Assembly: GCA_017525905.1 (NCBI GenBank)
Contig: JAFXSD010000018.1
Span: 1 to 64,000, forward strand
DNA: 64,000 nt
Direction of reading: 5' to 3'
DNA from: Elusimicrobiota bacterium
GTDB lineage: Bacteria; Elusimicrobiota; Endomicrobiia; Endomicrobiales; Endomicrobiaceae
The notes beneath the pieces are model-generated. The model ran no database searches. It was not told where the DNA came from and worked only from the letters and a program-made list of their open reading frames with translations. Positions 5,440 to 29,760 of this stretch are shown piece by piece. The stretch's first letter is position 1, and each line of letters opens with the position of its first letter. The translations under genes and the position numbers were made by a program.

Positions 5440-6396
5440 ATGCTTGAACAATTAACGGATAAAATTCTAAATCAAAATTATCATATAACAAAACAGGAAG
5501 CACTGTCTCTTGTAACGGAAGATTTACAGGAGCTTTCTTTTGCTGCCGAAAAAATAAAACAAAAATTTTGCGGTAACAAATTTGATATGTGCTCAATAGT
5601 CAGCGGTAAAAGCGGTAAATGCAGCGAAAACTGTAAATTTTGTGCACAATCTTCACATTATAAAACAAGCATAAAAGAGTATCCTTTACTTGACAGCCAA
5701 AATATATTTAAAGAAGCAAAACATAATGCGGATAAAAAAGTTAAAAGATTTTCCATTGTTACATCAGGTAAAAAACTTTCCGATACGGAAATCGATTCCG
5801 TTTGTCAAACTTATAAAAATATAAAAAACAAATGTGATATTTTGTTATGTGCTTCTATGGGACTTTTGTCTTATGAACAACTTGTAAAATTAAAACAGGC
5901 AGGTGTTACAAGATATCATTGCAACCTGGAAACATCAAGAAGATTTTTTCCTAATATATGTTCTACACATACCTATGATGATAAAATAAATACAATAAAC
6001 CTTGCAAAGAAAGCCGGACTTGAAATTTGCAGCGGCGGGATTTTCGGGTTGGGAGAAACTTTTGAAGACAGAATAGATATGTTTTTTGATATCTATAATC
6101 TGGGTATAAAATCCGTTCCGATAAATGTTTTAAATCCCATAAAAGGAACACCATTTGAAAATAATAAAATTTTATCTCAGGAAGAAATTAACAGAACTGT
6201 TGCAACAGCAAGATTTATTTTGCCGGATGCATTTATAAGACTTGCCGGCGGAAGACTTTTATTTAAAGATAAAGGTGTGTCGATGTTTTCTTCAGGCGCA
6301 AATGCCACAATTACCGGAGATATGCTTACAACATCCGGTACTTCAATAGATGAAGATTTTGATACAATAAAACGATTAGGCTTAAAAATTTGCTAA
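5440..6396 (+). CDS. bioB: Biotin synthase
   Basis: Radical SAM enzyme inserting sulfur into dethiobiotin. 318 residues, normal length. The SAM-cluster cysteines are C61, C65 and C68 in GKCSENCKFCAQS; further family landmarks are LLCASMG, YHCNLETS and EICSGGIFGLGET, which carry the probable [2Fe-2S] ligand cysteines, plus RLAGGR near the C-terminus. No other bio genes are nearby, so it may use imported or separately encoded precursor. No Shine-Dalgarno is visible; a TATAAT at 5416-5421 lies 18 nt upstream of the ATG, so a very short leader is possible. Confidence 0.93.
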   Translation: MLEQLTDKILNQNYHITKQEALSLVTEDLQELSFAAEKIKQKFCGNKFDMCSIVSGKSGKCSENCKFCAQSSHYKTSIKEYPLLDSQNIFKEAKHNADKKVKRFSIVTSGKKLSDTEIDSVCQTYKNIKNKCDILLCASMGLLSYEQLVKLKQAGVTRYHCNLETSRRFFPNICSTHTYDDKINTINLAKKAGLEICSGGIFGLGETFEDRIDMFFDIYNLGIKSVPINVLNPIKGTPFENNKILSQEEINRTVATARFILPDAFIRLAGGRLLFKDKGVSMFSSGANATITGDMLTTSGTSIDEDFDTIKRLGLKIC

Positions 6397-20222: not shown

Positions 20223-21116
20223 TTAGTATTGCTTTAATGTTTCTCTAATCTTATCATCAAGCCATTTTGGTTCTATTACCTTAACATAAGGTAACCAATG
20301 GAATATTGTAGGTAGTATTTCTTCCTCTTTGGCTATTTTACATTCCAATATTAAAGAACTGTCTTTATTTTCTTTTATTATTTTTTGTAAAGGAAAGTAT
20401 TGTTTTGCTTTAAAGTATTTTGCTGCCTTTTTAGCAATAGAAAGTTTTACTTTTATTTTTCGTTCCATCTCAAAATAAATATTTGTGCTTTCTTTTAATA
20501 TTTTGGTTATATCCTTTGTAATTTCAAAATATTTATTTGTTGTTGTTATTGTTTTTATATTATCAATATTATATTTTAAAACTTTATTTTTATGTCCTAC
20601 TAAACAGATTAAATACCAGAATCCTTCAAAGTATGCTATTTTTATTGGTTTTAAATTTTGTATTTTCTTATTATATACGGATTCGATTGTTAAATATTCA
20701 TTATCTTTTATTGCTTTTTCTATAGTCTTTGTTTTTTCGGTTATTTCATATTTAGGTCCGGTTTGAAACTTTACAAAAAACGGGCTGTCTGCATTTTCAG
20801 ACAATATCCTTTTTCTGAATATATCAAAACTTTTATCTATCTTTTTATTTTTTAAAGAATCTACAAAAGAATTTAACAATACTAAAAGTCCAGCTTCCGT
20901 ATCAGATAACAACATCTTTTGTAAAGAGAATCCTTCAGCAAAAGCATAAGCACCTTTTTGTGGGTTATATAGAGGAAATTCTGCATTTTCTATTTCTCTA
21001 ATATATCTTTGAATAGATTTTGTAGATACATTTAATTCTTCGGCAAGACCTTTCGTTGTTACTTCACCACTGTCCAACTTGTTCAAAATAAATATTATTG
21101 CAGACATTTTATTCAT
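20223..21116 (-). CDS. WYL-domain transcriptional regulator (YafY/BrxR/CapW-like architecture)
   Basis: 297 residues. An N-terminal winged helix-turn-helix (AIIFILNKLDSGEVTTKGLAEELNVSTKSIQRYIREIE, 6-43), a WYL domain (KPIKIAYFEGFWYLICLVGHKNKVLKYNIDNIKTI, about 155-190) and a C-terminal WCX-like extension (ILPTIFHWLPYVKVIEPKWLDDKI). WYL domains sense ligands, often nucleic acids, and such regulators commonly sit in defence islands. GGTGG 7 nt before the ATG supports the start. It is divergent from the deiminase operon; a plausible - strand promoter (TGGACA at 21173-21168, 17 bp, TAAAAT at 21150-21145) overlaps the motif at 21158-21171, suggesting autoregulation. Confidence 0.85.
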   Translation of the reverse strand: MNKMSAIIFILNKLDSGEVTTKGLAEELNVSTKSIQRYIREIENAEFPLYNPQKGAYAFAEGFSLQKMLLSDTEAGLLVLLNSFVDSLKNKKIDKSFDIFRKRILSENADSPFFVKFQTGPKYEITEKTKTIEKAIKDNEYLTIESVYNKKIQNLKPIKIAYFEGFWYLICLVGHKNKVLKYNIDNIKTITTTNKYFEITKDITKILKESTNIYFEMERKIKVKLSIAKKAAKYFKAKQYFPLQKIIKENKDSSLILECKIAKEEEILPTIFHWLPYVKVIEPKWLDDKIRETLKQY

Positions 21117-21157: not shown

Positions 21158-21189
21158 GACAGACTGTTGTCCACTTGGAATGTTATATA
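21158..21189 (+). promoter_or_regulatory. Island promoter/operator, site 1 (deiminase operon; overlaps WYL promoter)
   Basis: GACAGACTGTTGTC (21158-21171), TG at 21176-21177 and a -10-like TATATA at 21184-21189, with 12 bp between motif and -10 as in the other four copies. In the opposite direction it overlaps the -35 and spacer of a good WYL-gene promoter. Confidence 0.75.
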
Positions 21190-21320: not shown

Positions 21321-22118
21321 ATGACAACAATATATTTTTCATCATTATTAAAACAAAAAAGATATTTTCTTTTCTATAACAGGTTAGTAAAATTGTTTAA
21401 AGATAATAATTTAAATTGTGAATTTGTTGAAGGAACAAAAGATATTTGGATGCGGGATTTTATGCCTGTAAAATCTATGGATGGTAAATATATTCAATTT
21501 GATTATCATCCTATATACTTAAAAAAATATCCTACATATATAACAAACGGTAGTTTAATTGCAAAAAAGTTAGGTATAGAAACAATAAAAACGGATATAA
21601 AACTTGATGGCGGGAATTTCGTTTGTTATAACGGAAAAGCAATAATAACATCAAGAATATTTAAAGAAAATCCACAATATAAAGAAGAAAATCTCATAGA
21701 TAAAGTAAAAGATTTACTTAAACTTAACAAAATAATAATAATTGAAGAAGAATATGATGATTATGGGCATAGTGATGGTATGGTTAGGTTTGTTGATGAT
21801 AATGCCGTTTTAATTAATGAATATCCTAAAAAAGACATCAAATATAAAAAAAAATTAACCGATGTTTTAGAGAGAGAGGGTTTAAAATATATTGAAATAC
21901 CGTCAACTGATAATATGACAAATGCAATAGGTTTATATATAAACTATTTACAATTTGACGATGTTATAATAGTGCCGAAGTTCAATATAAAAAATGATAA
22001 TAATATATTAATATCGTTAAATAAAATATTTGGCAATAAATATAAGATACTGCAAATAGATTGCACCGAAATTGCCAAAGATGGTGGAGTTTTAAATTGC
22101 ATTAGTTGGCAGTTATAA
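21321..22118 (+). CDS. Agmatine deiminase / Porphyromonas-type peptidyl-arginine deiminase family protein, short
   Basis: Guanidine-modifying (GME) superfamily enzyme. 265 residues, versus ~340-370 for typical agmatine deiminases. Catalytic landmarks are all kept: KDIWMRDFMP, LDGGNFV, YGHSDGMVRFVDD (His-Asp) and the C-terminal nucleophile Cys in DGGVLNCISWQ. Substrate (agmatine, peptidyl-arginine or another guanidine) cannot be told from sequence. It opens the first island operon, under promoter site 1, with two more genes behind it. The missing ~80 residues are around the substrate-capping regions, so specificity may differ. Confidence 0.75.
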   Translation: MTTIYFSSLLKQKRYFLFYNRLVKLFKDNNLNCEFVEGTKDIWMRDFMPVKSMDGKYIQFDYHPIYLKKYPTYITNGSLIAKKLGIETIKTDIKLDGGNFVCYNGKAIITSRIFKENPQYKEENLIDKVKDLLKLNKIIIIEEEYDDYGHSDGMVRFVDDNAVLINEYPKKDIKYKKKLTDVLEREGLKYIEIPSTDNMTNAIGLYINYLQFDDVIIVPKFNIKNDNNILISLNKIFGNKYKILQIDCTEIAKDGGVLNCISWQL

Positions 22119-23606: not shown

Positions 23607-23638
23607 GACATAGTGCTGTCCACTTGCTATGGTACAAT
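23607..23638 (+). promoter_or_regulatory. Island promoter/operator, site 2 (PPP phosphatase)
   Basis: GACATAGTGCTGTC (23607-23620), TG at 23625-23626 and TACAAT at 23633-23638. Same spacing as the other copies; it points at the phosphatase gene 42 nt downstream. Confidence 0.8.
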
Positions 23639-23679: not shown

Positions 23680-24483
23680 ATGGGAAGAAGATTGTGTATC
23701 GGTGACATCCATGGTATGTATTCAAAATTAACTGATGTTTTGGATAGATGCAATTTTTCTTCTTCCGATATTCTGTATTGTGTTGGTGATTTGTGTGACA
23801 GAGGAAAAGAAAACTTAAAAACTTTAGAATTTCTAATGAGTTTAGATAATTTTTATCCGGTTATAGGTAACCATGATATTTGGCTTGCAGAATATTTAAG
23901 TTGTAAAATGCCGGAAAACACTTTTCGTGTTTGGGCTTATTATAACGGCGGAATGAATACTTTTGTAGAATTTTTGGATATGGCAGACGAAGAAAAACTA
24001 AAAATTTATGATTGGTTGAAAAATATACCATACATGATAAACCTTAAAGATAAAATTATAATGCATACTCCGACACCAAAAAAGGTATTTAAGAGATTAA
24101 AAGCAGGATATAATTTAGAAGGAATAACTCTTGCCAATATAAAAGAAAGCGGACTTTTACAAGATGAAATATATGATGACCAGCTTTGGAGTAGAAAAGT
24201 TATAGCATGTTCTAAATATGTAAACGATAAACAAAAACACAAAAAATTTTTTGAAACACAATTCAATAGTAAATCTCCAATAGTGTTTGCAGGTCATACT
24301 CCTTTATTTGAACCTATATATGATGAAAATATGAATATTTGTCTTATAGATACAGGCAGTTTTGCAACAAAAGAAAAAAATGAACAAGACGGTCATATAA
24401 CAATTGTAGATATAGATACATTGGACTATTGGCAAAACGGTAATACAAAAAAGCAAAACTTTTTAGATATTATTAGAAAATAG
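23680..24483 (+). CDS. PPP-family serine/threonine phosphatase-like metallophosphoesterase
   Basis: 267 residues. The phosphoprotein-phosphatase signatures appear in order: GDIHGMY (8-14), VGDLCDRGKEN, VIGNHDIWL, and a late FAGHTPLFEP and LIDTGSFA. This is the PrpA/PrpB/ApaH-like branch; targets could be phosphoproteins or dinucleoside polyphosphates. Single-gene transcript with its own island promoter (site 2). Its 3' end overlaps the convergent ClpX-like gene by 21 bp. Taggag ribosome-binding site. A phosphatase beside a Fic/Doc protein might reverse a modification, but this is speculation. Confidence 0.82.
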   Translation: MGRRLCIGDIHGMYSKLTDVLDRCNFSSSDILYCVGDLCDRGKENLKTLEFLMSLDNFYPVIGNHDIWLAEYLSCKMPENTFRVWAYYNGGMNTFVEFLDMADEEKLKIYDWLKNIPYMINLKDKIIMHTPTPKKVFKRLKAGYNLEGITLANIKESGLLQDEIYDDQLWSRKVIACSKYVNDKQKHKKFFETQFNSKSPIVFAGHTPLFEPIYDENMNICLIDTGSFATKEKNEQDGHITIVDIDTLDYWQNGNTKKQNFLDIIRK

Positions 24484-25971
24484 AGAAAACTCTTTTGGAC
24501 TTAAAGTAAAATCTTTTTGTCCTTTGGAAGAAGTTTCAAATAATATTTTGTTTAAAATACTGCTCAATATACTCTTCAAACCTCTTGCCCCCGTATTATT
24601 TTTTATTGCTTGTTCAGCAACATATTCTATTGTTTCATCAAGAATATTTAAATTTATACCAGCTTCCGTAAATACTTGTTTATATTGAGTTATAACATTA
24701 TTTTGGCTTTTCGTTAAAATTTTTATTAAATCTTGTTTTGTTAAAGCATTTAGTATTACCTTGTTAGGTAATCTTCCTATAAATTCCTGTAAAAAACCAT
24801 ACTCTATTAAATCTTCCGTAGTAACTTGTTGTAATATGTTTAAATTATCTTGTTCTACAATATTATCTTTAAAGAAACCTATACTTTTTCCTTTGTTTGT
24901 TTTTTTTCTTTTTTCAATAATCTTTTCCAACCCACTAAAAGCTCCGCCTAAAATGAACATAACATTTGATATATCATATTCTCTATTATCAAACATTCCA
25001 AAACAACAATGTGTGGTACTTTCAAATATTTTTAAAAATTCTTCCTGAACACTTTTGCTACCTATAATACCATCTTTTTCTTTACTAATCGCAATTTTAT
25101 CTATTTCATCTATATAAATTATGCTTATAGGAAATTTATTTCCTTCCATATTTTGTTTACATTCTTTTAATAATCCAACAAACATTGATTCTGGGGATAA
25201 TCCTACATATCCTGTTTCAGTCAATTGACTTGCATCTGCTATATATATGGGAATATTTAATATTTTACTTAATGTATTACAGATAAATGTTTTACCTGTT
25301 CCTGTTTGACCAATTATTAAAGTGTTTGTTTTATCTATTTTATCTTTTTTATTTTCATCTTTGTTTAGTCTACATTTTATTATGTGTTCATAAACTGCTG
25401 CAGAAATGTTTTTTATTGCATTATCTTGTCCTATAACATAACTATTTAATTTGCAATATAATTCGTTAGGTTTTATATCGATAATATAATTATTAATGGA
25501 TGTCGTTTCTCCTTTTGAAGTTATTAACAAATTAAATAAATGTTCGTTTAATTCTAAACCGAATGAGTATATTATGCATTTGTTTTTAAATAATTTTGAA
25601 TTTTTGCCAATTAAGTTTATTATTGTAATAGGTTTTGCAATATTTAATTCAATAAGCTCTGATACTAAGTCGCTTCTGCTAAAATGTTCATGTCTAATTT
25701 GGGCAATAGCTATTCTTATCAAAGTATATCGTTCTATGATATTAAGATTATATGGTTTTATCTCTTTAATAAAATCAATATCGGATTCTTCTTCCATACT
25801 TCTCTCATCTATCATTTTAAACAATTCAAAGATATTTTTTCTACGGTGTGTTTCACTATAAAAAAGTTTTAAAATATCATTGATGTAATGTTCGGAAGTA
25901 TAAGTTGGGAGTTTTGTTAAAGGTTCAATTTTACCTTGTTTTATTTCTTGTTCGTTAAATAATTCTTCCAT
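24463..25971 (-). CDS. ClpX-like AAA+ ATPase with atypical N-terminal domain
   Basis: 502 residues. From residue 171 it follows ClpX: LNSYVIGQDNAIKNIS, Walker A GQTGTGKT (221-228), pore loop GYVG (254-257), Walker B IIYIDEIDKIA (284-293), VQEEFLKIFE, sensor 1 NVMFILGGAF (336-345), IGF loop (364-366, in KSIGFFKDN), EFIGRLP (396-402) and the C-terminal TGARGLKSIL. ClpX normally has a short Cys4 zinc domain; here the ~170-residue N-terminus has no such motif and is unfamiliar, so substrates likely differ. The kept IGF loop suggests it can still dock on ClpP. Strong AGGAGG before the ATG; it has its own island promoter (site 5). Confidence 0.85.
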   Translation of the reverse strand: MEELFNEQEIKQGKIEPLTKLPTYTSEHYINDILKLFYSETHRRKNIFELFKMIDERSMEEESDIDFIKEIKPYNLNIIERYTLIRIAIAQIRHEHFSRSDLVSELIELNIAKPITIINLIGKNSKLFKNKCIIYSFGLELNEHLFNLLITSKGETTSINNYIIDIKPNELYCKLNSYVIGQDNAIKNISAAVYEHIIKCRLNKDENKKDKIDKTNTLIIGQTGTGKTFICNTLSKILNIPIYIADASQLTETGYVGLSPESMFVGLLKECKQNMEGNKFPISIIYIDEIDKIAISKEKDGIIGSKSVQEEFLKIFESTTHCCFGMFDNREYDISNVMFILGGAFSGLEKIIEKRKKTNKGKSIGFFKDNIVEQDNLNILQQVTTEDLIEYGFLQEFIGRLPNKVILNALTKQDLIKILTKSQNNVITQYKQVFTEAGINLNILDETIEYVAEQAIKNNTGARGLKSILSSILNKILFETSSKGQKDFTLSPKEFSLFSNNI

Positions 25972-26006: not shown

Positions 26007-26038
26007 ATTCTACAAAAACATACCGACAACATTATGTC
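26007..26038 (-). promoter_or_regulatory. Island promoter/operator, site 5 (ClpX-like gene)
   Basis: Read on the - strand: GACATAATGTTGTC (26038-26025), TG at 26020-26019 and TAGAAT at 26012-26007, 36 nt before the ClpX-like ATG. It is oriented towards the - strand gene, showing the motif is directional. Confidence 0.8.
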
Positions 26039-26070: not shown

Positions 26071-26102
26071 GACATACTGTTGTCTGTGTGCTGTTATAAA
26101 AT
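26071..26102 (+). promoter_or_regulatory. Island promoter/operator, site 3 (DnaA-lid protein / nuclease operon)
   Basis: GACATACTGTTGTC (26071-26084), TG at 26089-26090 and TAAAAT at 26097-26102, 30 nt before the ATG at 26132. It is back to back with site 5, with 32 bp between the two motifs. Confidence 0.8.
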
Positions 26103-26131
26103 ATTGTTAAAATAAAATATCGAAGGAAAAA

Positions 26132-26542
26132 ATGTATAAAAATTTTAAAGTAAAAGAAGATGAATGTTCAAAAATTGTAAATAATTTAACAAGTGTTTTA
26201 GACTTTGCTAATAAAATCTGTTCAAAATGCTGTGATATTCAAAAACTTGAAACAAGAATTGAAATGTTAAAAAAGAAAGCCAAAGATGAACAAATAGAAA
26301 TTCCCGAAGATGTTATAGAATTTATTGCTTCACAAATACAAACTAACAGTATAGATTTATTTAGTGCTTTATTTAGAATATCTGCTTTTATTAAATTTAC
26401 GGACAACCCTTTTACTGTAGATGTTGTGCAAAAGGCATTTAAAGATTTTAAATTTGAAGAAGAATTACATTGTAAAACTTGTCCTTATAATACAATGAAA
26501 AACAGTATTTCTGATATAATAAATATAACAAAAAACAAATAA
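26132..26542 (+). CDS. Stand-alone DnaA lid-domain-like protein with cysteine pairs
   Basis: 136 residues with no P-loop. Residues ~43-107 (LETRIEMLKKKAKDEQIEIPEDVIEFIA, then SQIQTNSIDLFSALFRISAF and FTVDVVQKAFKDF) follow the lid (domain IIIb) of the replication initiator DnaA almost residue by residue, including the Arg in ALFR that corresponds to the sensor-2 Arg of ALNR. No Walker motifs or DnaA DNA-binding domain are present. CSKCC (about 35-39) and CKTC (about 115-118) flank the lid and could bind a metal. It may interact with DnaA or another AAA+ protein such as the divergent ClpX-like one. Gaagg ribosome-binding site. Confidence 0.65.
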   Translation: MYKNFKVKEDECSKIVNNLTSVLDFANKICSKCCDIQKLETRIEMLKKKAKDEQIEIPEDVIEFIASQIQTNSIDLFSALFRISAFIKFTDNPFTVDVVQKAFKDFKFEEELHCKTCPYNTMKNSISDIINITKNK

Positions 26543-26564: not shown

Positions 26565-27647
26565 ATGAATAAAAATGAATTAATAAAAGATTTAAAATTG
26601 TCACCAATTTATAATATCTCACAAGATTCTTTAGAAAATTTTCATACTTCTTTTTTATGTTGGTTAGGAAATACTTATCCTGAAAAATTTATAAAACTAT
26701 TTACTAATAGAACAATAGATAAAACTAAAGAGTATAATTGTAAAAAACAACAATCTCATACATATGAAGACAAATATATAATAACAGACTTAGAAATTGA
26801 ATTTAACGACAATGAAATGCTTGTCATAGAAAATAAATTAAAATCTTTTCCTACAAAAGAACAATTAAACAAATATTCTAATGTAATCAATAAAAAAAAT
26901 AAAGTAGCAAGTTTTATTTTGCTATCATTAGCTCCTAAAACAATAAATTTACCAAAAGAATGGGAATATAAAAATTATGACGATTTAGTTTCAAAAATGA
27001 AAGAGATATTTAACAAAAATTTCAAATATATTGATATTTATCATGAACACTTAATTCAAGATTATATTAATGTTATAAATTTACTTTCAAAAAGTTTTCC
27101 TGAAAAAAACAATGAAATATATGATTTGTATGAACAAAAAAAACAAATTATAGATGATTTACAAGATATTTATATCAAATATAGGACATCCGAATTAGCA
27201 AATTATATTAATGAAAATATAAAAGAAAAAGATAATTGGAAAATTAAAGAAGGATTTAGCAGAAAACAAGGTATTATTGATGTAATACGAAAAATAGATG
27301 AAAACAACAGATTTCATATACAGATACAAGGTGAACAATATAGTTATGGCTTTGTATATTTAGAAGGGAAATCTAACCCAGATGATATATGGAAAGAAAG
27401 AATAAAGATTGCAAATAAATTAAAAGACCAGGGTTATTGGTTTGTTGATACAAAAAATCCTAAAAGAAAAACAAAATGTGAAAATTTTTGTAGTTTTAAA
27501 CCAGATTTCATATATAGACAATCTAATAAAGGAATCGATGAAAAAACAACTTATAAAGAAATAACAAACAGAATCAAAAAAGATATTGAAAAATTTGAAA
27601 CAAATTTAATTGAAATACAAAATTGTATATTTGAATTTGTTAAATAA
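26565..27647 (+). CDS. PD-(D/E)XK nuclease superfamily protein (PDDEXK_4-like)
   Basis: 360 residues. N-terminal ENFHTSFLCWLGNTYPEKFIKLF (24-46) resembles the E-x-HSxFLAWLL opening of PDDEXK_4 family proteins. The active-site triad appears as Asp75, then Glu89-x-Lys91 (DLEIEF ... MLVIENKLKS), with EQLNKY just after, the QxxxY motif of this superfamily. Remaining residues are Lys/Asn-rich helices, then a segment that may bind a substrate (FHIQIQGEQYSYGFVYLEG). Function unknown; many relatives lie in defence regions. Cotranscribed with the DnaA-lid gene (22-nt gap) and followed by a terminator. Confidence 0.7.
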   Translation: MNKNELIKDLKLSPIYNISQDSLENFHTSFLCWLGNTYPEKFIKLFTNRTIDKTKEYNCKKQQSHTYEDKYIITDLEIEFNDNEMLVIENKLKSFPTKEQLNKYSNVINKKNKVASFILLSLAPKTINLPKEWEYKNYDDLVSKMKEIFNKNFKYIDIYHEHLIQDYINVINLLSKSFPEKNNEIYDLYEQKKQIIDDLQDIYIKYRTSELANYINENIKEKDNWKIKEGFSRKQGIIDVIRKIDENNRFHIQIQGEQYSYGFVYLEGKSNPDDIWKERIKIANKLKDQGYWFVDTKNPKRKTKCENFCSFKPDFIYRQSNKGIDEKTTYKEITNRIKKDIEKFETNLIEIQNCIFEFVK

Positions 27648-27891: not shown

Positions 27892-27923
27892 GACATAGTG
27901 TTGTCTTGGTGCTTTTGTAAAAT
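27892..27923 (+). promoter_or_regulatory. Island promoter/operator, site 4 (FKNVP-repeat operon)
   Basis: GACATAGTGTTGTC (27892-27905), TG at 27910-27911 and TAAAAT at 27918-27923, 34 nt before the ATG at 27957. The downstream stretch also resembles site 3 (TAAAATA, then TGGTAAA versus TTGTTAAA). Confidence 0.8.
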
Positions 27924-27956
27924 ACTGGTAAAGAATATTTGTTATGGAGAATTATT

Positions 27957-29183
27957 ATGAATAATTCTATAGAAAATTTGACAAGAAAACAACTTGAGAA
28001 TTTAACAAAAGAACAAGCTTTTGATTATGTAAAAAAACTTGGTTTTAAAAATGTTCCAAATGAACTTATTTACAAATTGTCAGGATGGCAGCTTATTGAA
28101 TATGCAGAGAGTTTAAATTTTAAAAATGTTCCAAAATTTATAGTTGATGCAATATGTAAACGAGGTTATCATTCTGATTATGCTGAAAAAATGAAATATA
28201 AAAATGTTCCCAAAAAAATTATATATAAAATGAGCAGGTATGGAAACGAATCTTATTGGTATGCAAAAGGAGTTGGTTTTAAAAATGTTCCAAAAGTAAT
28301 TACTGATAGAATAGCAATGTATCCGTATTGGTCTTATTCATATGCAAGAGAGATTCTTATGAATAAAGAATTACCATTTACCAAAATAGATTCAGTTAAA
28401 TTACCGCAAAACATTTTAAATACGGTTAAAAATTCAGGTTTGTATAACATAACAGTTTTACAAAAAAGAAATATTTTTAGCTTTAAATTTAAAGATGAAA
28501 TTGACCCCGGTAAATATTACGAAGTAAATGTAAATAAATGCCCAGATGAACTTAATAAAGAGATTATGGAAAAAGTGTTTGAAGAGGAAAATCCACATGT
28601 TTGGTTTAATATGTATACAAAACTTGCTAATTTTTTACCGTTTGATTTTACTGTAAATAACAAAAAATATTTATGTGTATGTGAGTATATGTATAAATAT
28701 GAGTCTATGGAGATTGTAATAACCGAATATACCGAACCTAAAATACAATCTTTCAGTAAGACAGAAATAATATGCGATAGATTATGGGAACCCCATTTAA
28801 ATAATATGTTTTTTGAACATTGTGCAAAAATAATAACGGATAATAAATCGGAAAGAGTATCTCATTGGATAAAAGAATTATGGTTATATTGTGGATGGAT
28901 TCAATACGATAGAATAAAGCCAAATAATAAAACAATATCTTATGATTTGATGAGAACATATTTTTTCGGTGGTTGGGGACACAACTATGATTTCTTCAAA
29001 CGAGATTTATTTAATACCTATACCGAAATAAAGAAAGTAAAAACCGAGATACAAGACAAAAGCAATGATAGATTAGCTTTTGTAAAATTCAAAATATTTT
29101 TAAGAAAAACTATGCAGATGTTATCTAAACAACAATTAACCAAAGAAAAACTGACAAATTTAGCAAAACAATATTTAATTTAA
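27957..29183 (+). CDS. Unknown protein with YA...FKNVP repeats
   Basis: 408 residues from ATG 27957 (GGAGA 7 nt upstream; an earlier TTG is unlikely). Residues ~15-130 contain four ~31-residue units with the core FKNVP or YKNVP followed by a helix (GFKNVPNELIYKL, NFKNVPKFIVDAI, KYKNVPKKIIYKM, GFKNVPKVITDRI), each preceded by an aromatic-Ala-rich YA/YV helix. They look like a helical repeat solenoid. The C-terminal ~280 residues are Trp- and Tyr-rich and match nothing I know. No catalytic motif or signal peptide. First gene of a three-gene operon under island site 4. Confidence 0.65.
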   Translation: MNNSIENLTRKQLENLTKEQAFDYVKKLGFKNVPNELIYKLSGWQLIEYAESLNFKNVPKFIVDAICKRGYHSDYAEKMKYKNVPKKIIYKMSRYGNESYWYAKGVGFKNVPKVITDRIAMYPYWSYSYAREILMNKELPFTKIDSVKLPQNILNTVKNSGLYNITVLQKRNIFSFKFKDEIDPGKYYEVNVNKCPDELNKEIMEKVFEEENPHVWFNMYTKLANFLPFDFTVNNKKYLCVCEYMYKYESMEIVITEYTEPKIQSFSKTEIICDRLWEPHLNNMFFEHCAKIITDNKSERVSHWIKELWLYCGWIQYDRIKPNNKTISYDLMRTYFFGGWGHNYDFFKRDLFNTYTEIKKVKTEIQDKSNDRLAFVKFKIFLRKTMQMLSKQQLTKEKLTNLAKQYLI

Positions 29184-29196
29184 AAAGGAGCATAAA

Positions 29197-29760
29197 ATGG
29201 AAAGTAAAATTAAAGAAAAAGTGCTTTGGTACAAAGGTTATAACTATTTTCTTAAAGGAGAATATGAAAAGGCGACAGAAGTTTATGATGAAGTAATAAA
29301 TAAAGAACATAATGAATATGGATATTTATTAATGGGAATATTAAACAAAAAATTAAATAAATATGATGATGCGATTAAAAATTTTAATATGTATATCAAA
29401 CTTTCTGATAATAAAAGCAAAGGTTATGGCTACAGAGGTTTAACTAAACTAAATATGGTTTTAAATAAACAAGCTATTGATGATATTATGAAGTCGATAA
29501 AATTAGAATTGGAAAGCAGAAAAAAAGATATTAAGAAAGAAGAATTGGACAAGTTTTACAGAATACTAAAAACATATAAGAAAGGTAATGTTAATAATCC
29601 ACAGAAAAGAATATACAGCATTCCTATTGATATTTCAGGTTTCTTTAAATCTTGTATTTATAATATCGGGATAAACAACAAGTATGCTATAGACTATCTG
29701 CAACATTTATCAAACATATATTCCCAAATATCTACATGGAAAACTATACATAAAGGATAA
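29197..29760 (+). CDS. TPR-repeat protein
   Basis: 187 residues. Residues ~8-110 form about three tetratricopeptide repeats: KVLWYKGYNYFLKGEYEKATEVYDEVINK, YGYLLMGILNKKLNKYDDAIKNFNMYIKL, KGYGYRGLTKLNMVLNKQAIDDIMKSIKL. The C-terminal part (IYSIPIDISGFFKSCIYN) is distinct. A scaffold or adaptor role is likely; partner unknown. Ribosome-binding site aaggag, 13 nt after the FKNVP-repeat gene. Confidence 0.75.
   Translation: MESKIKEKVLWYKGYNYFLKGEYEKATEVYDEVINKEHNEYGYLLMGILNKKLNKYDDAIKNFNMYIKLSDNKSKGYGYRGLTKLNMVLNKQAIDDIMKSIKLELESRKKDIKKEELDKFYRILKTYKKGNVNNPQKRIYSIPIDISGFFKSCIYNIGINNKYAIDYLQHLSNIYSQISTWKTIHKG

Follow-up and report, generated by a model that had tools for sequence, protein, structure and literature searches.

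A 64,000-nucleotide stretch of an Elusimicrobiota genome (the window) carries, at 26132..26542 on the plus strand, a gene for a 136-amino-acid stand-alone DnaA lid (domain IIIb) protein. On sequence-based evidence, we conclude that this lid gene is an inducible, mobile mimic of a DnaA domain within a WYL-controlled defence or damage regulon. The structural and regulatory description of the gene can be given with high confidence; a block of replication initiation is its most likely action, and the mechanism as a whole is put forward tentatively. A second lid gene, full length, 84% identical, and with the same cysteines, is present in G013, a genome that belongs to a different genus of this family and is publicly recorded as uncultured Elusimicrobia bacterium, isolate RUG240.

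The DnaA lid spans residues 36 to 106 (26237..26449, plus strand) and is predicted to form four helices, at residues 39 to 52, 59 to 68, 73 to 90, and 96 to 106. A phmmer search of the PDB aligned residues 38 to 106 with the lid of Bacillus subtilis DnaA (8btg, E value 7.8e-10; 8bv3, E value 1.2e-9), with 41% identity over 68 columns, and the protein is 54% identical to the DnaA of its own genome (E value 2.5e-20). The first-pass annotation had placed a DnaA lid at residues 43 to 107; the lid was borne out and its boundaries were not, since the NCBIfam DnaA profile TIGR00362 aligned residues 36 to 134 with profile positions 266 to 363 of 437 (57 bits; cutoff, 344), so that the likeness begins slightly before that range and extends past the lid. 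It ends within the linker and the start of domain IV (the linker helix), where the open reading frame stops. An AlphaFold model, built on an alignment of the two lid proteins and 23 dnaA lid segments, gave the lid helices a pLDDT of about 90 and placed lower-certainty helices outside the lid, at residues 9 to 34 and 118 to 135. The top Foldseek match was DnaA domain III (8btg_B), at 0.9 Å over 68 columns; the best E value in that search was 3.7e-3, with none below 0.001. An origin of the N terminus from DnaA domain I, suggested by eye from the motif IVDNLT, gained no support from local alignments with shuffled sequences.

The protein has the sequence, the fold, and the lid and linker order of DnaA domain IIIb (8btg/8bv3), and it differs from DnaA in having no ATPase core, no helix-turn-helix (HTH) domain, and no sensor-II arginine, in its flanking CxxC pairs, and in a separate damage- or defence-type promoter. 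No AAA+ core with Walker A and B motifs was present when the reading frame was compared with TIGR00362, of which only positions 266 to 363 aligned, and with the Hda profile, against which it scored 18.5 bits (cutoff, 195). The C-terminal HTH domain that binds DnaA boxes is absent as well; the search gave no match to a domain IV family, and the frame stops at profile position 363 of 437. Pfam yielded a sub-threshold match to Hda_lid alone (21 bits; cutoff, 27), such that it was the NCBIfam profile, and not Pfam, that recovered the lid region of DnaA. Because the AAA+ core is missing, we regard the protein as a homolog of the DnaA lid that is neither DnaA nor Hda. Hda is likewise derived from DnaA without a DNA-binding domain, and the lid protein bears a weak similarity to its lid. 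Hda, however, retains the AAA+ core in full and works through ATP hydrolysis; that core is absent here.

Changes within the lid are concentrated where a coreless protein would be expected to show them. Against a reference set of 40 dnaA columns that are at least 95% invariant, 13 are altered in both lid proteins and 27 are retained in at least one copy; six of the 13 fall within residues 71 to 81, around the sensor-II motif. Residues 72 to 78 (26345..26365, plus strand) read NSIDLFS in both copies in place of NIRELEG, with loss of the sensor-II arginine and the glycine. As read from these alignments, both copies have lost the face by which a lid closes the ATP site and have kept most other family-invariant positions, and such a loss is expected of a lid that has no core. 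Two cysteine motifs bracket the lid, as had been noticed at first reading: CSKCC (C30, C33, and C34; 26219..26233, plus strand) and, in the linker between the lid and domain IV, CKTC (C114 and C117; 26471..26482, plus strand). The CxxC pairs at 30 to 33 and 114 to 117 are conserved in the second copy, and they may plausibly coordinate zinc and hold the two ends of the lid together. These four cysteines and a new helix N-terminal to the lid, together with the 13 changed columns, would suit a lid fold recruited as a small scaffold in a role that has nothing to do with DnaA, such as a zinc-stabilized subunit of a defence complex. We consider that quite unlikely, since even after long divergence over half of the lid still resembles DnaA.

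The comparison of the two lid genes bears on whether the reading frame has a function at all. DNA homology between the loci runs from about the ribosome-binding site (GAAGGA at 26122..26127, plus strand; GGAGGG in the second copy) to just past the next start codon. The two copies differ with a dS of 0.23 and a dN of 0.09 (dN/dS, 0.40), and purifying selection on the protein is supported by Fisher's test (P = 0.0067). In neutral simulations with 43 changes, 22 or fewer amino acid changes arose in 0.04% of runs (P = 0.0004), and 87.5% of runs acquired a stop codon. The gene is a piece of dnaA in which the start and the end of the parent are unmatched, as a functionless, decaying fragment of a duplicated dnaA would be. 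However, the full-length copy at 84% identity in another genus, the dN/dS ratio, the gene's own promoter and ribosome-binding site, and the lack of internal stops led us to reject decay, as far as two sequences allow, and we judge it very improbable; this alternative, one of those that the first-pass annotation had named as fatal to its claim, is thus disfavored by the conserved copy and the selection on it. The dnaA genes of the two hosts have a dS of 1.04, against 0.23 for the lid genes, and we infer from this disparity that the lid gene moved horizontally between genera.

A tree built on 80 columns joined the lid pair to dnaA of its own genus (support, 94/89) and, more broadly, to dnaA of genera g1, g4, g7, and g11 (support, 100/99). 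A tree that grouped the lids instead with the outer dnaA genera was only 2.3 log units worse and was not rejected (AU test, P = 0.32). On this phylogeny, the lid derives from a dnaA of, or close to, this bacterial family; the comparison with the host dnaA thus upheld an origin in the same lineage and did not fix the exact donor genus. The genome bin has 7% contamination. The WYL protein encoded in the window has a counterpart with 92% identity in a genome of the same genus (G001), which supports the assignment of the window to this lineage.

The gene is rare. It was found in 2 of 341 genomes of the phylum, among the matches listed, and no third copy appeared among them; the other listed matches in these genomes were open frames at least as long as dnaA, except for frames truncated by a contig end or a stop. 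Searches of viral contigs and of phage, plasmid, PHROGs, and BFVD sets yielded no stand-alone relative, and the one phage match examined was a full-length dnaA from an unverified record, so a phage origin of the lid was set aside. We found no description of a stand-alone DnaA lid in the literature, nor an instance in the databases searched.

The lid gene is preceded by a WYL/PafBC-type promoter at 26071..26102 on the plus strand, an exact pattern match that can be written GACATACTGTTGTC-N12-TAAAAT or TTGTCTGTG-N8-TAAAAT. The latter form, ending at 26102, fits the mycobacterial damage promoter consensus tTGTCRgtg-8 nt-TannnT (PMC5656591), the target of PafBC, with the same spacing and one base off at R. 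Promoters of the same type stand before the ClpX-like gene (26007..26038, minus strand) and before a set of genes for an FKNVP-repeat protein, a tetratricopeptide repeat (TPR) protein, and a membrane protein (27892..27923, plus strand), and, with one mismatch each, before the PAD-like gene (21158..21189, plus strand) and the metallophosphatase gene (23607..23638, plus strand). The sites before the lid gene, the ClpX-like gene, and other genes fit the pattern GACAnnnTGTTGTC-N12-TAnnnT. Exact matches in the genome number 9, with none for the reversed pattern, and in 40 family genomes the respective counts are 31 and 1; the three exact sites in the window are not independent of this count, because the pattern was written after the window had been viewed, and without them the figures are 6 against 0 and 28 against 1. 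In G013, the same promoter type precedes the lid gene, at position 6296 of its contig. The stress-type control proposed at first reading thus has a concrete candidate, which resembles known WYL-dependent promoters (PMC5656591, PMC12340889).

Genes immediately downstream of such sites include those for Cas9, an HsdR/methylase-type protein, a RelE-like/HTH pair, a WYL regulator, and YAcAr-RmuC, along with Fic and McrB-like AAA genes; a SIR2 protein gene is on the opposite side of a divergent site, and genes for GmrSD and a DUF4143 ATPase are farther along. The loci with Cas9, restriction, SIR2, RelE-like/HTH, WYL, and RmuC genes are at C95, C60, C126, C104, C80, and C25 of this genome (G000; L096-L112). 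These genes form a candidate joint defence and damage regulon of Elusimicrobia under a WYL/PafBC-type promoter. Two regulators of the HTH and WYL-WCX type are encoded in the genome, one in the window (HTH_11-WYL-WCX; 20223..21116, minus strand), which is the likely controller of the island around the lid gene, and one at G000:C104. The local protein would bind these sites and activate transcription. The sites come in two flavours (GACATA and GACAAG) and the two WYL paralogues are 40% identical, which together suggest at least two regulators.

Several WYL systems are comparable. PafBC is a WYL activator switched on by single-stranded DNA (PMC11804915), and in Caulobacter the WYL activator DriD, which binds a pseudo-palindrome whose distance from the -10 element is fixed, activates the division inhibitor gene didA (PMC12340889). 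The regulon described here has in common with those of PafBC and DriD the tTGTC-N12-TAnnnT spacing, a pseudo-palindrome in a constant position relative to the -10 element, a WYL-WCX regulator nearby, and a repair gene, rmuC, among its targets. It differs in belonging to Elusimicrobia and in consisting mostly of defence and accessory genes, including Cas9, and its regulators are single-gene WYL proteins in place of the PafBC pair. WYL regulators BrxR and CapW are tied to defence systems (PMC9122601, PMC9122588), and BrxR binds inverted repeats. BrxR represses its own island, whereas here the site is common to many scattered loci.

The accessory stretch in the window extends from the WYL regulator gene (20223-21116) through 30209, just short of a gene that we take from its sequence to be smpB. 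Upstream of the lid gene, the order is PAD-like, an unknown gene, Fic (PDC-S23-like), metallophosphatase, and ClpX-like (minus strand); downstream come a PDDEXK_4-like nuclease, the FKNVP-repeat protein, the TPR protein, and the membrane protein. The nuclease gene (26565..27647, plus strand), a candidate PDC-S26 defence protein, starts 22 bp downstream of the lid gene, and the two are likely cotranscribed. The TPR gene (29197..29760, plus strand) has a homolog, 63% identical, in G013, where it immediately precedes the lid gene in the order TPR, lid, DnaB_C-like, GmrSD, and GmrSD. The DnaB_C-like protein of G013 has a degenerate GKYSFDKT where a Walker A motif, GxxxxGK[ST], is expected. In G001, a DnaB_C-like gene lies behind the same promoter type, beside the gene for the 92% identical WYL regulator, and in a further genome (G028) the promoter occurs in a cluster of PAD-like, HNH-like, ClpX-like, and PDDEXK_4 genes. 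An integron-like cassette array was considered and rejected, as only the promoter repeats and one internal protein repeat stood out.

This setting lends itself to a reading in which the free lid imitates a part of DnaA attacked by phages and so absorbs a phage protein or triggers a partner, which in the window would be the PDDEXK_4 nuclease. Its promoter type is common to Cas9, restriction, and SIR2 genes, the PDC-S26-like nuclease follows the lid gene in the window, a DnaB_C-like gene and then two GmrSD-type genes follow it in G013, and the DnaB_C-like gene behind the same promoter type in G001 fits an island of replication protein mimics; moreover, the lid gene evolves faster than the lid of dnaA. 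However, the downstream partners of the two copies are unlike, the phage sets lacked a stand-alone lid relative, and no phage protein is known to us to target the lid of DnaA. A decoy or sensor role, and with it the nuclease as partner, is in our view unlikely.

The AAA+ gene that the first-pass annotation had noticed beside the lid gene encodes a ClpX paralogue (24463..25971, minus strand), divergently transcribed from a promoter of the same type. It retains the GYVG pore loop and the IGF loop for ClpP docking, and its N-terminal specificity domain, the part that a ClpX adaptor binds, has been replaced. The replacement is an approximately 150-amino-acid helical or winged domain with weak Foldseek likenesses to the DnaD N-domain and to MarR, neither of them significant. 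Relatives of the paralogue are at L092, L088, and L093. The retained loops and the exchanged domain would allow the lid to serve as adaptor or substrate, such that the unfoldase recognizes DnaA or another target for ClpP, and a close paralogue is present in both lid genomes and yet in just 4 of 75 family genomes. In two genomes with the ClpX-like gene, however, no lid gene was detected among the matches listed. In the assembly of G013, a ClpX-like, metallophosphatase, and Fic group, with the promoter before the ClpX-like gene, is on a separate contig from the lid gene, and a shared type of island would by itself yield the association. The partnership with the ClpX-like protein suggested at first reading thus draws weak support from co-occurrence, and we rate it as improbable.

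The action we prefer for the lid protein, a block of replication initiation, would proceed as follows. The gene encodes a free DnaA domain IIIb and is a mobile accessory gene drawn from a dnaA of the family; the WYL activator, sensing single-stranded DNA that results from damage or from an attacking phage, would turn it on. The free lid would then dock on DnaA at the position of the neighboring protomer's lid, in the contact between domains IIIa and IIIb of the filament. Critical DnaA residues line that contact between successive filament protomers (PMC10721633). As a free lid can neither complete the ATP site nor bind DNA, it may cap or poison the oligomer and pause initiation, and an induced pause of this type would parallel the induction of a division inhibitor by DriD. 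Against capping, several lid residues that are invariant in the family are altered, and the filament contact may have been lost with them; nearly all relatives do without the gene, and its neighbors differ between the two genomes; and the N-terminal 35 residues and the cysteines are not accounted for by a simple capping model. By analogy, the lid protein would join SirA, YabA, and YfdR as a small accessory protein that restrains DnaA. None of the three is known to be built from DnaA's own lid. The binding of YfdR depends on Phe46 of DnaA (PMC4776307).

Since the promoter is common to Cas9 and other antivirus genes, the lid may either pause replication or bait a virus during an attack. A wider statement, possible though slightly more doubtful than a block of initiation, is that a mobile, WYL-controlled checkpoint or defence protein was made from the DnaA lid, as a dominant-negative subunit or as bait, in islands with other mimics of housekeeping machines. 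Those mimics would be the ClpX paralogue with its exchanged specificity domain and the DnaB C-domain proteins, of which one has a degenerate Walker A motif, and defence would then operate by mimicking domains of the host's replisome and protease. If the lid does restrain DnaA, the sensing of damage or phages would be tied directly to replication initiation, and the protein would be a small natural tool for DnaA. Apart from that, in a rumen-type Elusimicrobia genome the promoter links several systems, CRISPR-Cas9, restriction, and SIR2 among them, to a single WYL-type control signal, and joint regulation of defence genes is a testable claim in a phylum with almost no genetics.

Some further reading frames were observed alongside these. 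The FKNVP-repeat gene (27939-29183) encodes tandem repeats of approximately 26 residues (FKNVPKxI) that match no Pfam family. The PAD-like gene behind the island promoter type (21321-22118) resembles Porphyromonas-type peptidyl-arginine deiminases and agmatine deiminases, and the island in G028 holds a similar gene. A reading frame on an IMG/VR contig (L147:2596-3522) seemingly carries a sigma-factor-like HTH stretch joined to the lid and domain IV of DnaA, with the ATPase core absent, and may be a chimera. Short DnaB C-domain proteins are encoded in islands of the lid type at L032:1019-1714 and L095:2922-3368.
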